In this document: in pieces, positions 10,834-32,575 of the stretch
Layout: each line of letters opens with the position of its first letter
How positions within the stretch are numbered: position 1 is the first letter of the stretch
Assembly: GCA_035260525.1 (NCBI GenBank)
Contig: DATFVB010000175.1
Coordinates: 1-34,540 of the forward strand
Source of the DNA: Thermoanaerobaculia bacterium
Lineage (GTDB): Bacteria > Acidobacteriota > Thermoanaerobaculia > UBA5066 > DATFVB01
Length of the DNA: 34,540 nucleotides
Direction: 5' to 3'
The notes under the pieces: generated by a model
Seen by the model: only the letters and a program-made list of their open reading frames with translations
What the model was told of the DNA's origin: nothing
Database searches by the model: none
Translations under genes and position numbers: made by a program

Positions 10834-11697
10834 CTATGCCTTCGGCTGCATCACGAGCGCCATCTTCTCCTGGAACGTGCGCATCGGCGCCGTTCCGCGG
10901 AGAGCGGAGATCGTTTGCTCCGTCTGCCGGATGAAATCGCGCACCGACTCGATGCCGCGCCCACGGTCGATCTCGGCGAGCGCCTGGCGGTACGGGCGGT
11001 CGATGCCGGGGAGGTTCTGTTCGCCCATCGCGGCTTCCGCTTCCTGCTTCACGCGGGTGCAGAGGATCATCAGGATCTTCTTCTCGTCCCCGAGCGTCGC
11101 GGGCGAGCCGGGCGCGGCCGGCGGGATCGGGACCGCCGCCGGGGGCGGCAGTCGGGCAGGTTCCTTCGCGCGCAGCTCGACGAGATCTGCGGCGACGAGC
11201 CCGTAGAGAGTCTTCGCGACCTCGAAAGGGGAGGTCTTGTTGGCGCGCGCGATCTCCTCGATCGTGCGGTGGCCGTCGATCTTTCCGGCGAGATTCCATT
11301 CCTGCGGGGAGAGCGTGACGGGCTCCGGACTTTCCCGCTCCTTGAGCTGCGGAACGGCGTCGATGCCGGGGATCTTCTTCGAGAGGACCTTCCACTCGTC
11401 GAGCCGCCGGGCCGCTTCCATCAGGAGGCTGGTGTTCGACTTCGTGATCGTGTGCTCGTCGCTCTCGTCGTTGGGGTTGAACTGGAAGTCGCCCGACGAC
11501 CAGATCGCCAGCGCGTAGACGGCCTCCTCGCCCGTGATCTCGCCGAGGCGGCTGTGGACCATTTGTCCGTTTTTCAGGTAAATGACCCCGCGCTCGGGAC
11601 CCCGGGTGAGCGTGAACACGCCCGTTTTCCCCGATACGGACATCAATTGGACGATGTCCGGGACCGGGAGTTCTTTCAGCGAACCCTGGAATGACAT
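10834..11697 (-). CDS. DUF4388 (PATAN-type) protein
   Basis: This is a 287-residue protein. ATG 11697 gives the canonical DUF4388 opening MSFQGSLKELPVPDIVQLM; a GTG at 11718 would add seven residues but overlaps the promoter. The DUF4388 domain (about 1-95) includes SGKTGVFTLTRGPERGVIYLKNGQMVHSRLG and GEEAVYALAIWSSGDFQF. A second, winged-helix-like segment (about 118-170, LSPQEWNLAGKIDGHRTIEEIARANKTSPFEVAKTLYGLVAADLV) follows, then a Pro-rich linker and a helical C-terminus. DUF4388 proteins are linked to gliding, type IV pilus and c-di-GMP signalling in Acidobacteriota and Myxococcota. The precise role is unknown. Confidence 0.85.
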   Translation of the reverse strand: MSFQGSLKELPVPDIVQLMSVSGKTGVFTLTRGPERGVIYLKNGQMVHSRLGEITGEEAVYALAIWSSGDFQFNPNDESDEHTITKSNTSLLMEAARRLDEWKVLSKKIPGIDAVPQLKERESPEPVTLSPQEWNLAGKIDGHRTIEEIARANKTSPFEVAKTLYGLVAADLVELRAKEPARLPPPAAVPIPPAAPGSPATLGDEKKILMILCTRVKQEAEAAMGEQNLPGIDRPYRQALAEIDRGRGIESVRDFIRQTEQTISALRGTAPMRTFQEKMALVMQPKA

Positions 11698-11708
11698 GTT
11701 TGGCTCGG

Positions 11709-11737
11709 ATGCTAACACGCGACCGTTCGACCGTCAA
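11709..11737 (-). promoter_or_regulatory. Sigma-70-type promoter of the DUF4388 gene
   Basis: On the minus strand TTGACG and TAGCAT are spaced 17 bp apart, ending 11 nt before ATG 11697. The predicted leader is 4-5 nt. The promoter overlaps the last codons of ruvC. Confidence 0.7.
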
Positions 11738-12212
11738 AAGTCGGTCCCGAGGCGTGGTGACAGTGGCAGATCGCGGTCGCGAGGGCGTCGGCGGCATCCA
11801 GTGGAATGGCCGCCGATGTCGCCGAAAGGAGCGATTTGACCATTTCGCGGACCTGCGGCTTTTCGGCGCGCCCGTACCCGGTGATCGACTTCTTGATCGT
11901 GAGCGGCTCGTATTCGTAGGTCGGGAGACCGGCGCGGGCGGCGGCCAGGAGCACGACGCCGCGCGCGTGGGAGAGCGCGACCGCGGAGGCGGCGCTCTTG
12001 CCGGCGAAGACCGTCTCGAGGGCCACGGCGTCGGGACGGCAGTCGGCGAGGAAACGCTCCGCCCGCGCGAATAAGGACTCGAGCCGCCGCGAGAGCCGGC
12101 CGTCCCCTTCGCGCCAGACCCCGAAGTCCAAGGCGACGAGGACGCCCGAGGTGAAGTCGACGAGCCCGTAGCCGCAGGCGCGGGAGCCCGGGTCGATGCC
12201 GAGGACCTTCAC
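11712..12212 (-). CDS. ruvC: Holliday-junction resolvase RuvC
   Basis: This 166-residue endonuclease cuts Holliday junctions in recombinational repair, acting with RuvAB. The four catalytic acidic residues sit in the expected motifs: GIDPGSRACGYG (Asp6), ALETVFAGKSAASAVALSHARG (Glu about 66) and DAADALATAICHCHH (two Asp about 139 and 142). It starts with GTG. yebC lies upstream on the same strand, the common yebC-ruvC order, but a 354-bp gap full of repeats separates them. ruvA and ruvB are not in the window; a DUF4388 gene follows instead. Confidence 0.95.
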   Translation of the reverse strand: MKVLGIDPGSRACGYGLVDFTSGVLVALDFGVWREGDGRLSRRLESLFARAERFLADCRPDAVALETVFAGKSAASAVALSHARGVVLLAAARAGLPTYEYEPLTIKKSITGYGRAEKPQVREMVKSLLSATSAAIPLDAADALATAICHCHHASGPTFDGRTVAC

Positions 12213-12566: not shown

Positions 12567-13301
12567 TCAGGCCGACTCGGGGAGCTCGGCCGCCGTCCAG
12601 ACGTTCTGGACGTCGTCGTGCTCTTCGATCGCTTCCATCAGCTTCATCAGCTGCGCGCTCTTGGCGTCGTCGAGCTTGACGGGCGTCTGGGGGATCATCG
12701 AGACCTCCGAGACGGCGACCGGCACGCCCCTGGCCTCGATCTTCGTCTTCACGTCGTTGAACGATTCCGGCGCCGTGTAGATCTCGAAATACTCGGCATC
12801 GTCGGTCGCGAGGTCGTCGGCCCCCGCCTCGAGGGCGATCTCCATCAGGCGATCCTCCGAGACCTTGTCGCGCTCGACGGCGAGGTAGCCCTTCTTGTCG
12901 AACATGAAACGAACGCACCCGCTCTCGCCGAGGTTGCCGCCGTTTTTCGTGAACATGTGGCGGATCTCGGGGAGCGTGCGGTTCTTGTTGTCGGTGAGCG
13001 CCTCGATGTAAATGGCGGCGCCGCCGGGACCGTACCCTTCGAAGACGACCTCCTCGTACTGGACTCCGGGCAGCTCGCCCGTCCCGCGCTGGATCGCCCG
13101 CTTGATGTTGTCCGCGGGCATGTTCGCGGCCTTGGCGTCGTCGACCGCCTTGCGCAGCCGGGCGTTGGTCTCGACGCTCCCGCCTCCTTCGCGCGCGGCG
13201 ACCGTCAGCTCCTTGATGAGACGCGTGAAGATGCGCCCGCGCTTGGCGTCGGCGGCGCCCTTCTTGTGCTTAATCGTGCTCCATTTGCTGTGGCCCGACA
13301 T
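12567..13301 (-). CDS. yebC: YebC/PmpR family regulatory or ribosome-rescue protein
   Basis: This is a 244-residue TACO1/YebC-family protein. The diagnostic start MSGHSKWSTIKHKKGAADAKRGRIFTRL and internal NMPADNIKRAI, YEGYGPGGAA-like (FEGYGPGGAAIYIEALTDNKNRT) and GCVRFMFDKKG motifs are all present. Members were described as transcriptional regulators; recent work on the family supports a role in translating difficult proline stretches. That is relevant here because several neighbours, including the kinase fusion, are very proline-rich. AAGAGGA precedes the ATG, and a good promoter lies upstream, divergent from the kinase promoter. Confidence 0.95.
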   Translation of the reverse strand: MSGHSKWSTIKHKKGAADAKRGRIFTRLIKELTVAAREGGGSVETNARLRKAVDDAKAANMPADNIKRAIQRGTGELPGVQYEEVVFEGYGPGGAAIYIEALTDNKNRTLPEIRHMFTKNGGNLGESGCVRFMFDKKGYLAVERDKVSEDRLMEIALEAGADDLATDDAEYFEIYTAPESFNDVKTKIEARGVPVAVSEVSMIPQTPVKLDDAKSAQLMKLMEAIEEHDDVQNVWTAAELPESA

Positions 13302-13368: not shown

Positions 13369-13398
13369 TTGACAACCGCTGCGGCGCATGGAGATAAT
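13369..13398 (+). promoter_or_regulatory. Sigma-70 promoter of the kinase-TonB fusion gene
   Basis: TTGACA and GATAAT are spaced 18 bp apart, the best -35 in the window. The predicted transcript starts near 13405, about 7 nt before ATG 13412. An in-frame ATG at 13388 lies between the two boxes and is therefore not the initiator. Confidence 0.8.
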
Positions 13399-13411: not shown

Positions 13412-16315
13412 ATGGCAAAGAAGCTTCTCCTGATCGAGAACGAGCCGCGATACATCGATAAGGTGCGTCTGGCGGGGGGGCCGGATTTCGATGTGACGGT
13501 CGCCCGCGAGGGGGACGAGGGCCTCGCGGCCTTCGACCGCGAGCGTCCTGACCTCGTCGTGGTGACCGCCGCCCTCCAGAAGATGCGGGTCAACGACGTG
13601 ATCCGCGACCTGCGCCGGAAGGGCGGCCCGACGGCTCCTCCCATCCTCCTGATGATGTCCGGCTACAAAGGTTCCAATCCCAAAGCGGACGCGCAGAAGA
13701 TCGGCGCGTTCGACATCCTCGAGAAGCCGTTCTCCGACGAGACCTTCCGGAGCATCGCGTTCGAAGCGATCGATTCGACCGATCCGGGCGCCCAGACGAT
13801 GCGCATCGACGCTTCGAAGCTGCAGGGCGGGCTCACGTCCTCGGACATCTTCGCCGACGTGCTGGAGGATCTCCAGCCGGAGGAGGCGGCGCCTCCGCCG
13901 CGGAGCTCCGCGGCCACGATTCCCGATCTCGCGATTCCCTCTCCGGCCCCGGCGCCGCCGCGCGCATCCGCGCCGGCTCCCAACGTCGACCAGCGGCTGG
14001 AGGACACGCTGTCGGGCATCCTCAGCCCGAAGAAGAGCGCTCCCGCCGCTCCCCCCGCCCGGCCCGCGCCTATGGAGCCGCCGAAGCCGGCTTCGGCCGC
14101 GCCGGCGCCGAGACCCGCGCCCCCGGCCCCGGTGAGGCCCGCGGGCCCCCCGCCCCTGCCGAAGCCCGCCGAGCCTTCCCGGCCGGCGCCGCGGGCCTCG
14201 ACCGATCTCGAGGTCGAGAACATGATCTCGCAGACGCTCTCGGGCATGGCGATCTCGAAACCGAAGCCCGCCGCGCCCGCGAAACCGGCGGCGGCCGCGC
14301 CCCCTCCTCCGGCGCCCGCGGCGGCCGCGAAGAAGGCCCCCGCCCCGTCCGACAAGGACCGTTTCGGCCAGTTCCAGCTCATGGAAAAGATCGCGACCGG
14401 CGGCATGGCAGAGGTCTGGAAGGCGCGGATGAGCGGCGTCGACGGTTTCCAGAAGATCGTCGCGATCAAGAAGATCCTTCCGCACATGGCCGCGTCGGAG
14501 GACTTCATCACGATGTTCGCCGACGAGGCCAAGCTCGCCGCGCAGCTCAACCACCCGAACATCATCCACATCTACGATCTCGGGAAGGTCGAGAACTCCT
14601 ACTACATCGCGATGGAGTACGTGGAGGGACGCGACCTGCGGTCGATCCTGAAGTCCGGGGCGGACCACGGGCTGCCGCTCCCGCCGGAGCTCGCGCTGTT
14701 CGTCGCGTCGAAGCTCGCCGCGGCGCTCGACTACGCGCACCGGCGCAAGGACTTCAACGGCCAGGACCTGTCGCTCGTCCATCGGGACGTCTCGCCGCAG
14801 AACGTGCTCATCTCCTACGAAGGCGACATCAAGCTCTGCGACTTCGGCATCGCGAAGGCCGCGTCGAAGTCCTCGCAGACGCAGGCGGGTGCGCTGAAGG
14901 GCAAGCTCCAGTACATGTCCCCGGAGCAGGCCTCGGGCAAGCCGCTCGACCGGCGGAGCGATCTCTTTTCGCTCGGGAGCGTGCTCTACGAGATGCTGAC
15001 CGGCGAGAAGCTCTTCGCCGGCGACACGGACCTGACGATTCTCGAGCAGGTGCGCAACGTCAAGGCGGCCGCGCCGTCGACGAAGAACCCCGACGTCCCG
15101 AAGCGCGTGGACGCGATCGTCCTGAAGGCGCTCGCGAAGAGCCCCGAGGAGCGGTACCAGAACGCCTCGGACCTCCAGCGCGACCTCGAATCCGTTTTGT
15201 ACACGTTCTCTCCCGCTCCGGGGAGCGCGGATCTGGCGATCTATCTCCACCATCTCCAGGCGGAGGAGAAAGGCGCGGCCGCGGGGAGCGAGCGGGCCTT
15301 CGACCAGGCTTTCACGCCGTCGAAGCCCGAGCCGGCGGCGCCCGCGAAATCGAAGAAGGCCAAGGGCACCGTCGTCCAGCGCAAGACCGGCACCGTTCCG
15401 GGCGTCCCGATGCCCGCCTCGCCCGCGCCCGTCGCGGCCGCCGAGCCGGCCGTCGCGGGGTCCGCCGAGGGCGTCAAGCACGACACCAAGAGCGGCGTCT
15501 TCGGCGCCTACTCGTCCAAGCGCGTCGAAGCGGAGAAGAAGGGAAGGGCGCCGCTCGTCGCCGGGATCGCCGTGGCCGCCCTCGTCCTGATCGGCGTGAT
15601 CGTCGCCGTCACCCGCAAGCACCCGGCGCCGCCCGTCGCCGTCCCATCGGCGGCGACGACGTCCGCGGCGCCCGCCACGACGTCGGCCGCTCCCGCCGCG
15701 ACGACGACGGCGGCGAGCTCCACCCTGACCGAGAAGCAGATCGAGGACGAGGTCAAGAAGCAGCTCGCGCAGAAGCAGAAGGAGCTCGAGAAGGCGCAGG
15801 CGGCGCAGAAGAAGAACGCCGCGCCACCCCCGGCGTCGGCTTCCGCCGCGGCTCCGACGGCCGTGGCGAGCGACGCGATCAAGCCGCCCGTGCCGATGCC
15901 GATCGTTCCCGAGCCCACGTCCCCGCAGCCGACCGCGATCAGCGTTCCGAAGAAGATCGCGAGCGCTCCTGCTTCCGCGCCGCCGCCGGCCGAGCCGGCC
16001 GCGGCCGCCGTCTCGCGCGGCGATCTCGTCGGCCCGGGGCCGGGCGTCGTCGAGCCCGAGCTCGTGTCGCGTCTCGCCGTGAATTACCCTCTCGCGGTCC
16101 GGCAGGAGCGTGTCTCCGGCCGTGTCGTGATCCTCGCCCTCGTGGACGAGAACGGCAAAGTCCAGTCGGCGCGGATCCAGACGGGGGTCGCTACGAGGAC
16201 CGGCGTCAACCAGGCGATCGTCGACGCCGTCAAGAGGGCGCGGTTCCGGCCCGCCACGAAGGACGGCGTGCCGGTGAAGATGTACAAGGCGATTCCGGTC
16301 GACGTGAATCCGTAA
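13412..16315 (+). CDS. Pseudo-receiver / Ser-Thr kinase / TonB C-terminal fusion
   Basis: This is a 967-residue multidomain protein. Residues 2-120 have a response-regulator fold, but the phospho-acceptor position is Thr52, not Asp, and the acidic pair is Glu9/Glu11; Ser83 and Lys105 remain, so it is a pseudo-receiver. A long Pro/Ala linker (about 150-315) follows. The protein kinase domain spans about 318-597, with the glycine loop IATGGM, Lys353, HRDVSPQN (457-464), DFG (477-479) and GKLQYMSPEQA. One transmembrane helix (about 714-734) is followed by a Pro/Ala-rich segment, a short coiled coil (about 773-802) and a TonB C-terminal domain (about 880-967). The predicted topology is kinase inside and TonB domain in the periplasm. 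It starts at ATG 13412, just after a strong promoter. It is probably a transmembrane signalling or energy-transduction protein; partners are unknown. Confidence 0.88.
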   Translation: MAKKLLLIENEPRYIDKVRLAGGPDFDVTVAREGDEGLAAFDRERPDLVVVTAALQKMRVNDVIRDLRRKGGPTAPPILLMMSGYKGSNPKADAQKIGAFDILEKPFSDETFRSIAFEAIDSTDPGAQTMRIDASKLQGGLTSSDIFADVLEDLQPEEAAPPPRSSAATIPDLAIPSPAPAPPRASAPAPNVDQRLEDTLSGILSPKKSAPAAPPARPAPMEPPKPASAAPAPRPAPPAPVRPAGPPPLPKPAEPSRPAPRASTDLEVENMISQTLSGMAISKPKPAAPAKPAAAAPPPPAPAAAAKKAPAPSDKDRFGQFQLMEKIATGGMAEVWKARMSGVDGFQKIVAIKKILPHMAASEDFITMFADEAKLAAQLNHPNIIHIYDLGKVENSYYIAMEYVEGRDLRSILKSGADHGLPLPPELALFVASKLAAALDYAHRRKDFNGQDLSLVHRDVSPQNVLISYEGDIKLCDFGIAKAASKSSQTQAGALKGKLQYMSPEQASGKPLDRRSDLFSLGSVLYEMLTGEKLFAGDTDLTILEQVRNVKAAAPSTKNPDVPKRVDAIVLKALAKSPEERYQNASDLQRDLESVLYTFSPAPGSADLAIYLHHLQAEEKGAAAGSERAFDQAFTPSKPEPAAPAKSKKAKGTVVQRKTGTVPGVPMPASPAPVAAAEPAVAGSAEGVKHDTKSGVFGAYSSKRVEAEKKGRAPLVAGIAVAALVLIGVIVAVTRKHPAPPVAVPSAATTSAAPATTSAAPAATTTAASSTLTEKQIEDEVKKQLAQKQKELEKAQAAQKKNAAPPPASASAAAPTAVASDAIKPPVPMPIVPEPTSPQPTAISVPKKIASAPASAPPPAEPAAAAVSRGDLVGPGPGVVEPELVSRLAVNYPLAVRQERVSGRVVILALVDENGKVQSARIQTGVATRTGVNQAIVDAVKRARFRPATKDGVPVKMYKAIPVDVNP

Positions 16316-16346: not shown

Positions 16347-16571
16347 ATGACCCTTTCGGCGGAGCAGAAGAAGTTCTACGAACAGACCCTGGCGGTCACG
16401 AAAAAGGAGATCTCGGACCTGGAGGCGAACATCCAGGACGAGCTCGCGAAGGTCAAGGAGCGCCTGGCCGAGCTCCAGAACGCCCAGAAAGCGGCGCGCC
16501 AGATGTACGACGCCGCCTGCACCCGCCTCGGCGTGCCGAACGACCTGGAAGAGGCGGAAAGCGCGTCGTAG
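16347..16571 (+). CDS. Small coiled-coil protein
   Basis: This 74-residue, highly charged protein is predicted to be one long amphipathic helix (residues about 4-58, heptad pattern through KKEISDLEANIQDELAKVKERLAELQNAQKAARQ) with a short acidic tail. It has no signal peptide and no recognised family. GAAGGAGAG lies 10 nt before the ATG. It follows the kinase-TonB gene by 31 nt and is probably co-transcribed, so it may be a partner or scaffold for it. Two cysteines are absent except for one near residue 59. Confidence 0.75.
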   Translation: MTLSAEQKKFYEQTLAVTKKEISDLEANIQDELAKVKERLAELQNAQKAARQMYDAACTRLGVPNDLEEAESAS

Positions 16572-16678: not shown

Positions 16679-17515
16679 ATGCGCCGCCTCCATTCGCGCG
16701 CGCTGGCCGCGCTCTCCTTCCTCTCCGCGGCGTCCTTCGCGCCGGCCGCGCCCGCGGCGCCCCGCCGCGTCGTCGCTCTCGCTCCGAATCTGACGGAGAT
16801 CGTCTTCGCGCTCGGCGCCGGCGGCCGCCTCGTCGGGGTATCGGCACTCTCGGACTACCCGCCCGCCGCGGCGTCGCTTCCGCCGGTCGGCGGTCTCACG
16901 CCGGATCTCGAGAAGATCGTCTCGCTGCGCCCCGACCTCGTGCTGGCGACGACCGAAGGGAACCCGGCGGCGTCGGTGAAGATCCTCGCCGACCGGGGGA
17001 TCCCGGTCCTCACGACGTCGGCCCCGGACCTCGACGGAGTGCTCGCGTCGATCCGCGAGATCGGCGATCGCCTCGGCGTGAGGGCCGAAGGCGAGCGGCT
17101 CGCCGCCGCGCTCGCGCGGCGCCGCGACGCGGTGCTCCGGCGGCGGCGGGGATCGGGACCTTCCGCGGTTCTCCTCATCTGGCCCTCGCCGCCGCAGGCG
17201 GCCGGCGCCGGGACGTTCGCCGCCGACATCCTGAGGACGGCGGGGGCGCGCAACTGCGTCGGCCGGCCGGGGTGGCCGGTCGTCTCGCCGGAGTTTCTCC
17301 TGACCGCTGCCTGCGACGCCGTGGTGTACCCCGTGGAGAAGGACACCATGCCGGTCTTCGCCCGTGCGTTCCGCGAGGGGCCGCTGTCGCGCATGCCGGC
17401 CGTCGCCGCCGGGCGCGTCATCGGTATCGACGGCGACCGTCTGATCCGTCCGGGGCCGCGCTCCTTCGACGCGCTCGAGGAGCTCGCGGCCGCGCTCGCG
17501 AAGATCCCGCGATGA
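16679..17515 (+). CDS. Periplasmic metal-chelate/cobalamin-binding protein (BtuF-like)
   Basis: This is a 278-residue substrate-binding protein of the BtuF/FecB type (Peripla_BP_2). The signal peptide (ALSFLSAASFAPAAPAAP, residues 9-26) precedes RRVVALAPNLTEIVFALGAGGRLVGVS (28-54). SDYPP, VGGLTPDLEKIVSLRPDLVLA and the C-terminal AARVIGIDGD-like strand (AAGRVIGIDGDRLIRPGPRSFDALEEL) follow. Such proteins deliver vitamin B12, haem or ferric siderophores to a BtuCD/FecCD transporter. Specificity cannot be fixed: AHPGT-type cobalamin residues are not obvious and there is no riboswitch. It is the first gene of a three-gene importer operon, 7 nt before the permease gene. Confidence 0.85.
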   Translation: MRRLHSRALAALSFLSAASFAPAAPAAPRRVVALAPNLTEIVFALGAGGRLVGVSALSDYPPAAASLPPVGGLTPDLEKIVSLRPDLVLATTEGNPAASVKILADRGIPVLTTSAPDLDGVLASIREIGDRLGVRAEGERLAAALARRRDAVLRRRRGSGPSAVLLIWPSPPQAAGAGTFAADILRTAGARNCVGRPGWPVVSPEFLLTAACDAVVYPVEKDTMPVFARAFREGPLSRMPAVAAGRVIGIDGDRLIRPGPRSFDALEELAAALAKIPR

Positions 17516-17522
17516 AGAGCCG

Positions 17523-18491
17523 ATGAAGGGACGCCGCGCTTCGCCCGCCGGAGCGATCGCCGCCGCGTTCGCGATCCTCGCGGCGGCTGCCGTTTTCGCG
17601 GTCCTCGTCGGAAGCGTGCCGCTCTCGTTCGAGGCGCTCCGCCGCGGCGACCCGGTCGCTCGGGCGATCCTCTCGCTCCGGCTGCCGCGGGTCGCGCTCG
17701 CGGCCGGCACCGGAGCCGCGCTCGCGATCGCGGGGGCGGCGCTGCAGGCGCTGCTCAAGAACCCGCTCGCCGATCCTTTTCTGCTCGGGACCTCGGGAGG
17801 CGCGGCCGCCGGCGCGGCCGTCGCCGTCTATTTCGGCGCGTCGGCGCTCGCGTCGCCGGCCGGAGCCTTCGCGGGGGCGGCCGCGGCGACCGCGGCGGTG
17901 CTCCTCCTCTCGCTTCGTTCCGGCCGCCTGGACCTCCAGCGGCTGCTCCTGGCCGGAGTCACCGCCAACGCGTTCTTCTCCGCGGTGATCCTCCTGCTCT
18001 TCTCCTCGTCGGCCGGAGGGCGCTCGCGTTCGATGCTCTTCTGGATGATGGGAAGCCTCGCCGAAGCGCGGCCGTCGGAGGCGGCGGCGCTCGGCCTCTA
18101 TCTCGCCGTCGGCGGAGGGCTCCTGCTCGCGACGGCGCCCTCGCTCAACCTCTTTCTCGTGGGCGAGGAGAGCGCCGCCTCGCTCGGCGTCGCCGTCGAC
18201 CGGACGAAGGCCCTCGTGTTCGCTGCCGCCGCGCTGCTGGCGGCCGCGGCGACGTCGTTTGTCGGGATCGTCGGGTTCGTGGGCCTGATCGCGCCGCATC
18301 TGGCGCGGCTCGCGTGGGGGAACGATCAGCGCCGGCTGCTTCCCTGCAGCGCCGCGGCGGGCGGCGCTCTCGTCGTGCTCGCCGACGCGCTTTCCCGTCT
18401 CCTCTTCTCGCCGGCCGAGATCCCGATCGGCGCCGTCACGGCGCTGGTCGGCGTGCCGTTCTTCCTGCTCGCTCTCCGGAGGGTCTCGTGA
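17523..18491 (+). CDS. FecCD/BtuC-family permease
   Basis: This 322-residue polytopic permease has 8-10 hydrophobic segments. Typical BtuC/FecCD elements are LRLPRVALAAGTGAALAIAGAALQALLKNPLADPFLLGTSGGAAAGA (residues 53-99) and MLFWMMGSLAEA. SAASLGVAVDRTKALVFAAAALLAAAATSFVGIVGFVGLIAPHLAR contains the coupling helix facing the ATPase. It moves the chelate delivered by the upstream binding protein across the inner membrane. The final GTGA overlaps the start of the ATPase gene, which implies translational coupling. Confidence 0.9.
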   Translation: MKGRRASPAGAIAAAFAILAAAAVFAVLVGSVPLSFEALRRGDPVARAILSLRLPRVALAAGTGAALAIAGAALQALLKNPLADPFLLGTSGGAAAGAAVAVYFGASALASPAGAFAGAAAATAAVLLLSLRSGRLDLQRLLLAGVTANAFFSAVILLLFSSSAGGRSRSMLFWMMGSLAEARPSEAAALGLYLAVGGGLLLATAPSLNLFLVGEESAASLGVAVDRTKALVFAAAALLAAAATSFVGIVGFVGLIAPHLARLAWGNDQRRLLPCSAAAGGALVVLADALSRLLFSPAEIPIGAVTALVGVPFFLLALRRVS

Positions 18492-19273
18492 CGGCGGGAC
18501 TCGCGGTCGCGGGGCTGCGCGCGGGATACGGCCGGGAGACGGCGCTCGACGGCGTCGACTTCGAGGCGGGCGCGGGACGGCTCGTCGCGCTCGCGGGGGA
18601 GAACGGGTCGGGAAAGTCGACGCTGCTGAAGGCGATCGCCGGCGTCGTCCCGAGGTCGACGGGCGAGATCCGGCTCGGCGGCGAGTCGATCCGGGAGTGG
18701 CCCCGGCGCAAGCGCGCCCGGGCCGTCGCCTACGCGGCTCAGTCGGTCGACCTCATCTTTCCGATTTCCGTTCGCGACCTCGTCCTCCAGGGACGCGCCC
18801 CGTGGCGTTCCGGGTTCCTCTGGGAGAGCGGGGAGGACCGCGAGATCGCCGAAGAGGCGATGCGCGCCTGCGACGTGCTCGATCTCGCCGAGCGCGACGC
18901 GACCCGGCTCTCGGGAGGCGAGCGCCGCCGCGCGTTCCTCGCGCGCCTGCTCGCGCAGCGCGCCGCCGTGTGGCTCCTCGACGAGCCGACCGCGGATCTC
19001 GACCCGCGCCACCGGCTGGAGTTCCTCGAGGTGCTGCGGGAAGCGCACGCGCGCGCCCGGCCGATCGTGCTCTGGGCCACCCACGACGTCAACGAGGCGC
19101 TCGCGATCGCCGACGACCTGCTGCTGCTCCGCCGCGGACGCCTCGTCGCGGCCGGTCCCGTCGACGGCGCGCTCGCGCCGGAGGCGCTGGAGCGGACCTT
19201 CTCGATCGGCGCGGCGGTCGAGCGCGACGCGGCGGGACGACCGCGGGTGACGTTCTTTCGGCCGAGCTCCTGA
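18488..19273 (+). CDS. ABC importer ATPase (BtuD/FecE-like)
   Basis: This is a 261-residue ABC ATPase. GTG 18488 is chosen because it overlaps the permease stop (GTGA) and precedes the domain directly (TAGLAVAGLRAGYG). Walker A GENGSGKST (about 38-46), Q-loop YAAQSVDLIFPISVRDLV, signature LSGGERRR, Walker B VWLLDEPTADLD and switch ATHDVNEA are intact. It powers import of the B12-, haem- or siderophore-type substrate. A C-terminal extension (ERTFSIGAAVERDAAGRPRVTFFRPSS) is typical of FecE/HmuV-like members. Confidence 0.9.
   Translation: MTAGLAVAGLRAGYGRETALDGVDFEAGAGRLVALAGENGSGKSTLLKAIAGVVPRSTGEIRLGGESIREWPRRKRARAVAYAAQSVDLIFPISVRDLVLQGRAPWRSGFLWESGEDREIAEEAMRACDVLDLAERDATRLSGGERRRAFLARLLAQRAAVWLLDEPTADLDPRHRLEFLEVLREAHARARPIVLWATHDVNEALAIADDLLLLRRGRLVAAGPVDGALAPEALERTFSIGAAVERDAAGRPRVTFFRPSS

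Positions 19274-31220: not shown

Positions 31221-32575
<1,355 letters not shown>

Follow-up and report, generated by a model that had tools for sequence, protein, structure and literature searches.

The known routes by which outer-membrane signals reach the cytoplasm rely either on TonB-ExbBD together with anti-sigma factors or on sensors that sit separately in the periplasm. Among receptor kinases, the PASTA kinases PknB, StkP and Stk1 combine a PknB-like kinase having a conserved activation-loop Thr with a single transmembrane (TM) helix and an extracytoplasmic C-terminal part. TonB energy transducers are built from a TM helix, a further helix, a Pro-rich spacer and a TonB C-terminal fold. 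The membrane helix of TonB and TolA carries a Ser-x3-His motif through which these proteins bind their motors (PMC12215075; PMC8928145), and Asn can stand in for the TonB His in E. coli according to a reference listed in PMC8928145. The TonBC motif is also used outside nutrient uptake, namely in GltG and GltJ (AgmX) of the Myxococcus gliding machine, which possess one TM helix, a periplasmic helical domain and the TonBC motif (PMC5349195). Finally, aspartate-less receivers (ALRs), which have the receiver fold without the phospho-Asp, are abundant in Acidobacteria; across the ALR survey, Glu is the commonest replacement of the Asp (PMC4395418).

We analyzed a DNA stretch of 34,540 nucleotides, referred to as the window in its full length, which encodes a 967-aa protein that shares features with each of these systems. 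It resembles the PASTA kinases in the characters listed above, but it lacks PASTA repeats, begins with an Asp-less receiver and ends in a TonB C-terminal domain that sits on a Pro-rich spacer. It has the layout of a TonB energy transducer, but with a large, predicted cytoplasmic signalling part, without Ser-His in the TM helix and without adjoining ExbBD. GltG and GltJ differ from it in having no kinase and in having the AglRQS motor as their partner. Its receiver is an aspartate-less receiver as PMC4395418 uses the term, although it is fused to a Ser/Thr kinase and the usual replacement in its relatives is Ser, Thr or Asn rather than Glu. No description of a kinase-TonB_C protein was found in the literature searched, which is weak evidence given that subscription journals were mostly not covered. 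The protein is conserved, real and apparently undescribed, and its kinase with a TonB tail looks like an undescribed route for signals across the envelope. If true, a kinase ending in a TonB domain would link the outer membrane and the cytoplasm in one molecule.

Domain Architecture of the 967-aa Protein

The start site at 13412 agrees with those of aligned relatives, and an in-frame ATG at 13388 represents a possible upstream start (Table 1). Three Pfam domains exceeded their curated cut-offs: Response_reg (E = 7e-9), Pkinase (E = 1e-43) and TonB_C (E = 3.5e-9). An AlphaFold2 model, for which the orthologue alignment served as input, predicted the receiver, the kinase core, the coil and the TonB domain with confidence, while the linker remained below pLDDT 50 except for short stretches. 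The initial annotation, which had proposed a pseudo-receiver, a Ser/Thr kinase and a TonB C-terminal domain in one polypeptide, was thus right in each part according to Pfam, NCBIfam and AlphaFold2.

Table 1. Features of the kinase locus in the window and the paralogue found elsewhere in the same genome.
Feature	Residues	Position	Strand	Basis
DUF4388 (PATAN-type) protein, conserved neighbour		10834..11718	-	synteny
RuvC, conserved neighbour		11712..12212	-	synteny
YebC, divergent conserved neighbour		12567..13301	-	synteny
Receiver-kinase-TM-coil-TonB_C protein, 967 aa		13412..16315	+	ORF from ATG 13412, Pfam, NCBIfam
Pseudo-receiver	7-113	13430..13750	+	Pfam, alignment
Thr52 in phospho-Asp position of receiver	52	codon 13565-13567	+	alignment
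Linker motif LTSSDIFADVL, variant of LTSxDIFGDVL	141-151	13832..13864	+	pattern in relatives
Linker motif VDQRLEDTLSGI	192-203	13985..14020	+	TLSG-type motif
Second linker motif VENMISQTLSGM	268-279	14213..14248	+	sequence, relatives
Ser/Thr kinase domain, PknB-like	322-583	14375..15160	+	Pfam, motifs in relatives
Activation-loop Thr490	490	codon 14879-14881	+	conserved in relatives
Single transmembrane helix, without SxxxH	713-733	15548..15610	+	sequence, model
Helical coil, predicted periplasmic	774-801	15731..15814	+	AlphaFold2
Pro/Ala-rich stretch	802-868	15815..16015	+	sequence; low pLDDT
TonB C-terminal domain	890-963	16079..16300	+	Pfam, NCBIfam, AlphaFold2, foldseek
small74, 74-aa helical coiled-coil protein, constant downstream partner gene		16347..16571	+	synteny
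BtuFCD-type importer (16679-17515, 17523-18491, 18485-19273)		16679..19273	+	neighbour in some relatives
Pseudokinase-TM-coil-TonB_C paralogue, about 600 aa		G000:C294:12272-14077 (= L127:6273-8078)		TonB-domain search of genome

The N-terminal domain matched the receiver family PF00072 with 36.2 bits (cut-off 30.2), and its model showed alternating strands and helices, mostly at pLDDT 90-95. In the alignment, Glu9 and Asn10 occupy the acidic-pair position and Thr52, as had been noticed at the outset, replaces the phosphorylatable Asp. The Asp was lost in 76 of 79 relatives, the position being occupied by Ser (32), Thr (28), Asn (12), Asp (3) or other residues (4); outside the class of the window, Ser, Arg, Glu or Tyr were found, with Asp in one of the sequences read. 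Since the loss of the Asp is conserved while the replacing residue varies by lineage, Thr52 has no special standing. The idea of a Ser/Thr at this site as a universal autophosphorylation site was likewise weakened, since Asn often occupies the position in the class and other lineages of the phylum have Arg, Glu or Tyr. Behind the receiver, the LTSxDIFGDVL-type pattern recurred in 66 of 90 relatives, some of which are cut by contig ends, and the TLSG-type motif in 78 of 90.

All the motifs of an active kinase were present in the window protein, namely the VAIK Lys (K353), the alpha-C Glu (E372), HRD (457-459), Asn (N464), DFG (D477) and the APE Glu. They were kept in 90/90 relatives, save for one row gapped at the VAIK and alpha-C sites, which bears out the intact active site initially reported, and the activation-loop Thr490 was invariant in 90/90. 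The domain is catalytically complete and predicted to be active. The closest solved kinases were PknB, StkP and Stk1. However, the PASTA-kinase model NF033483 scored 313.6 bits against a cut-off of 450, and Pfam detected no PASTA repeats in the protein. Of note, the source genome (3.8 Mb) gave about 60 Ser/Thr-kinase matches, with runs of them on contigs C252, C264 and C357.

The tail exceeded the cut-offs of both PF03544 (37.4 vs 24.6 bits) and the NCBIfam model TIGR01352 tonB_Cterm (44.3 vs 27.1 bits) and was modelled with pLDDT 89-98. In a foldseek search against the PDB, all top matches were TonB C-terminal domains (6i97_D, TMt 0.79; BtuB:TonB 2gsk_B, 0.72), including some solved with FoxA, TbpA, BtuB and FhuA. 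The early reservations that the tail might not have a TonB fold, or that the preceding helix might not span the membrane, did not hold: the model and the fold search gave a TonB fold, the TM segment was a single helix in the AlphaFold2 model, and by a simple hydropathy count 87 of 90 relatives have one apparent TM segment separating the kinase from TonB_C. The distance from this helix to the TonB domain is about 100-260 residues in the family and Pro-rich, with at least 15% Pro in 72 of the 82 relatives that have TonB_C. The positive-inside rule was uninformative as a guide to topology, which the flanking charges leave unsettled, the kinase side being more positive in just 32 of 90 relatives and equal in 16. 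Because kinases need ATP and known TonB domains are periplasmic, we infer that the kinase is cytoplasmic and the tail periplasmic. Eight of the 90 kinases had no TonB_C (L180, L221, L226, L230, L234, L239, L243, L025); they kept the kinase and TM helix, in most cases also the receiver, and most of them still end in a coil-like segment.

Related tails occur in other signalling settings. Two myxobacterial kinases (L037:7770-9680 and L038:7914-9650) end in an AgmX/PglI (GltJ-like) tail that exceeds the NF033768 cut-off. They share the order kinase-TM-TonB-like tail, but their tail belongs to another subfamily, they have no receiver and they fall outside this family, so that they resemble a parallel invention. 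Together with the TonBC motif of GltG and GltJ, these proteins indicate that the combination of a kinase and a TonB-like tail probably arose more than once. In the source genome, a protein with an SH3-like part, a TM helix and TonB_C (contig C123; L005, L129) adjoins an FHA-GAF-adenylate-cyclase-like gene, placing a TonB domain in a signalling setting.

Distribution of the Kinase and Its Partner Gene small74

The orthologues from a first scan of genome contigs bore the labels Acidobacteria, Thermoanaerobaculia or Holophagae. For a second survey, the small74 gene was sought in 148 genomes of the window's class without selection for kinase features. It was found in 106 of them, and the kinase lay directly upstream in every locus with enough upstream sequence. 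After removal of duplicates and inclusion of the first-scan loci, the family set comprised 90 distinct kinases, 82 of which have TonB_C; the median distance to small74 is about 34 bases. With a whole-protein profile (E ≤ 1e-90), members were detected in 65 of 199 genomes from across the phylum. Judging from these predicted proteins, the kinase with a TonB tail is a conserved family across much of the Acidobacteriota, recurring in other classes.

In the class, small74 comes after the kinase in all 90 distinct loci that could be read, and outside it in 17 of 19 loci. In 16 aligned relatives, its product is 55-70% identical to the window copy. Database comparison gave no family over the cut-off for small74, just weak coiled-coil look-alikes below cut-offs. 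Without a known family, it is a concrete new partner candidate. The gene is single-copy in most genomes of the class and ranks with the best-conserved elements of the locus. In one family of the class (f9), small74, the receiver-kinase and the pseudokinase described below are missing from nearly all members, an apparent joint loss.

A Pseudokinase Paralogue with the Same Kind of Tail

The source genome encodes a second protein in which a degraded kinase domain is followed by a TM helix, a coil similar to that of the kinase and a TonB domain. Relatives of this twin were present in nearly all of 22 genomes tested. In 17 aligned sequences, the HRD Asp was lost and DFG was broken in all 17, and the VAIK Lys was lost in most. 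TonB_C was present in 17/17, and 14 still register as a kinase fold. The paralogue is, on the loss of these catalytic residues, a pseudokinase.

Its tail scored 108 bits with a model of the kinase tail, compared with 38-75 for the four other TonB_C proteins tested from the same genome. In a phylum sample counted by hand, the twin was present at another place in 55 of 65 kinase-bearing genomes vs 4 of 134 without the kinase (Fisher p about 1e-33, a value that ignores shared ancestry and is therefore overstated), and it was missing in 10 of the 65. Moreover, six genomes have an active kinase that lost TonB_C, and there the twin still matches its model to the end. The co-occurrence, the common tail and this retention suggest that kinase and pseudokinase work together at the envelope, possibly by direct pairing. 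In some families of the class, pseudokinase-like proteins are also present in the absence of small74. We consider the kinase/pseudokinase pair the most interesting lead. An active kinase accompanied by a pseudokinase with a matching tail resembles the receptor logic of animals and would make it testable in a phylum with poorly studied signalling.

In six loci of the window's class with enough flank, the twin gene lies directly after mltG; beyond the class, the two genes were not seen linked. In the source genome, it stands directly after mltG and RuvX/YqgF.

A Putative Trans-Envelope Receptor Kinase

We give about an even chance to the reading that the protein is an unpowered trans-envelope receptor Ser/Thr kinase acting with the pseudokinase, and the best reading of direction is that signals run inwards, reaching the kinase from the periplasm or outer membrane. 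The receiver and the PknB-like kinase would lie on one, presumably cytoplasmic, side of the helix, with the coil, the Pro-rich spacer and the TonB fold on the other, presumably periplasmic, side. Without ExbBD power, the tail would bind an outer-membrane partner (a TonB-dependent receptor or another outer-membrane protein) or peptidoglycan. Such contact would alter the pairing of kinase chains via the coil, and the chains would trans-phosphorylate Thr490. The receiver would no longer accept phosphate from a histidine kinase and, together with the repeated linker motifs, may act as a docking site. In this scheme, the twin would probably join the kinase in a kinase/pseudokinase complex, with small74 as a probable soluble regulator or adaptor. 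By analogy, the protein may work as PASTA-type receptor kinases do, but through another sensor, its tail belonging to the TonB domain family.

What the tail touches is a matter on which we hold tentative views. With low confidence, we propose that much of the phylum Acidobacteriota has a receptor composed of an active kinase and a pseudokinase, both of which would dock with their TonB tails directly on outer-membrane receptors or other outer-membrane proteins; the cytoplasmic Ser/Thr kinase would then read the outer-membrane state with neither TonB-ExbBD power nor a FecR/FecI-type relay. A lack of receptors is unavailable as an argument against such contact: they are present in the source genome, and TonB-dependent receptor plugs occurred in all 22 kinase-bearing genomes searched. 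We regard it as rather unlikely that the tail is instead a peptidoglycan-binding or dimerisation module and the protein an analogue of the PASTA kinases, sensing the state of the cell wall without ever contacting outer-membrane receptors. The nearest kinase matches and the position of the twin behind mltG would fit a cell-wall role, although the latter link is confined to the window's class. TonB-like proteins with cell-wall roles exist, e.g., SjdR (PMC8262864), and the eight kinases that lost the tail mostly retained a coil-like segment, but the long spacer and a fold matching TonB domains solved in receptor complexes speak against this alternative.

It is improbable that the protein is a TonB energy transducer switched by its own kinase, with ExbBD driving the tail and phosphorylation turning it on or off. 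The true TonB fold and layout would suit such a role, and the search for ExbBD and TonB-dependent receptors that the initial annotation called for found both in the source genome, the receptors numbering four or five. However, the Ser-x3-His motif for ExbB contact (PMC12215075; PMC8928145) was absent from the window TM helix, from 89 of 90 relatives and from 17/17 pseudokinases. Furthermore, the motif is present (SVIIH) in a dedicated TonB of the same genome, whose gene forms one cluster with, and immediately precedes, those of ExbB and two ExbD. A separate Tol cluster is also present, and the neighbourhood of the window kinase contained no ExbB/ExbD partner genes. Some kinases without TonB_C also retain everything else. 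The helix without Ser-His and the separate TonB-ExbB-ExbD set make energy transduction by the kinase tail unlikely, and the earlier suggestion that phosphorylation gates it found no support. The simplest reading of these sequences is that the tail would be an undriven contact to the envelope. As a caution, the residue statistics are compatible with some other motor acting on the tail, and the His of the TonB motif can, as noted above, be substituted by Asn in E. coli.

Gene Neighbourhood

Many relatives retain YebC, RuvC and the DUF4388 protein upstream of the kinase. The BtuFCD-type importer had been described as lying directly downstream; it is indeed downstream in the window, but the conserved 74-aa gene intervenes. 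Behind small74, BtuFCD was present in the window and in seven relatives, in one of which just BtuF was found. In most relatives with a TonB tail (at least ten), accD directly follows small74 without BtuFCD, making the importer a poor guide to kinase function. From the resulting order, YebC/RuvC//kinase-small74-(BtuFCD)-accD, BtuFCD looks like an optional insertion, and on this synteny it is probably not part of the kinase system. A nutrient-status kinase dedicated to the importer (B12 or a metal chelate) is very improbable, as its proximity (364 bases downstream in the window) and recurrence are outweighed by the TonB-tailed relatives with accD in its place, which leave the B12/metal import link unsupported and rule out BtuFCD as an obligate partner. 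Elsewhere in the window, a receiver-like stretch (32193-32564, minus strand) within a 1105-aa open frame shares 31% identity with the pseudo-receiver.
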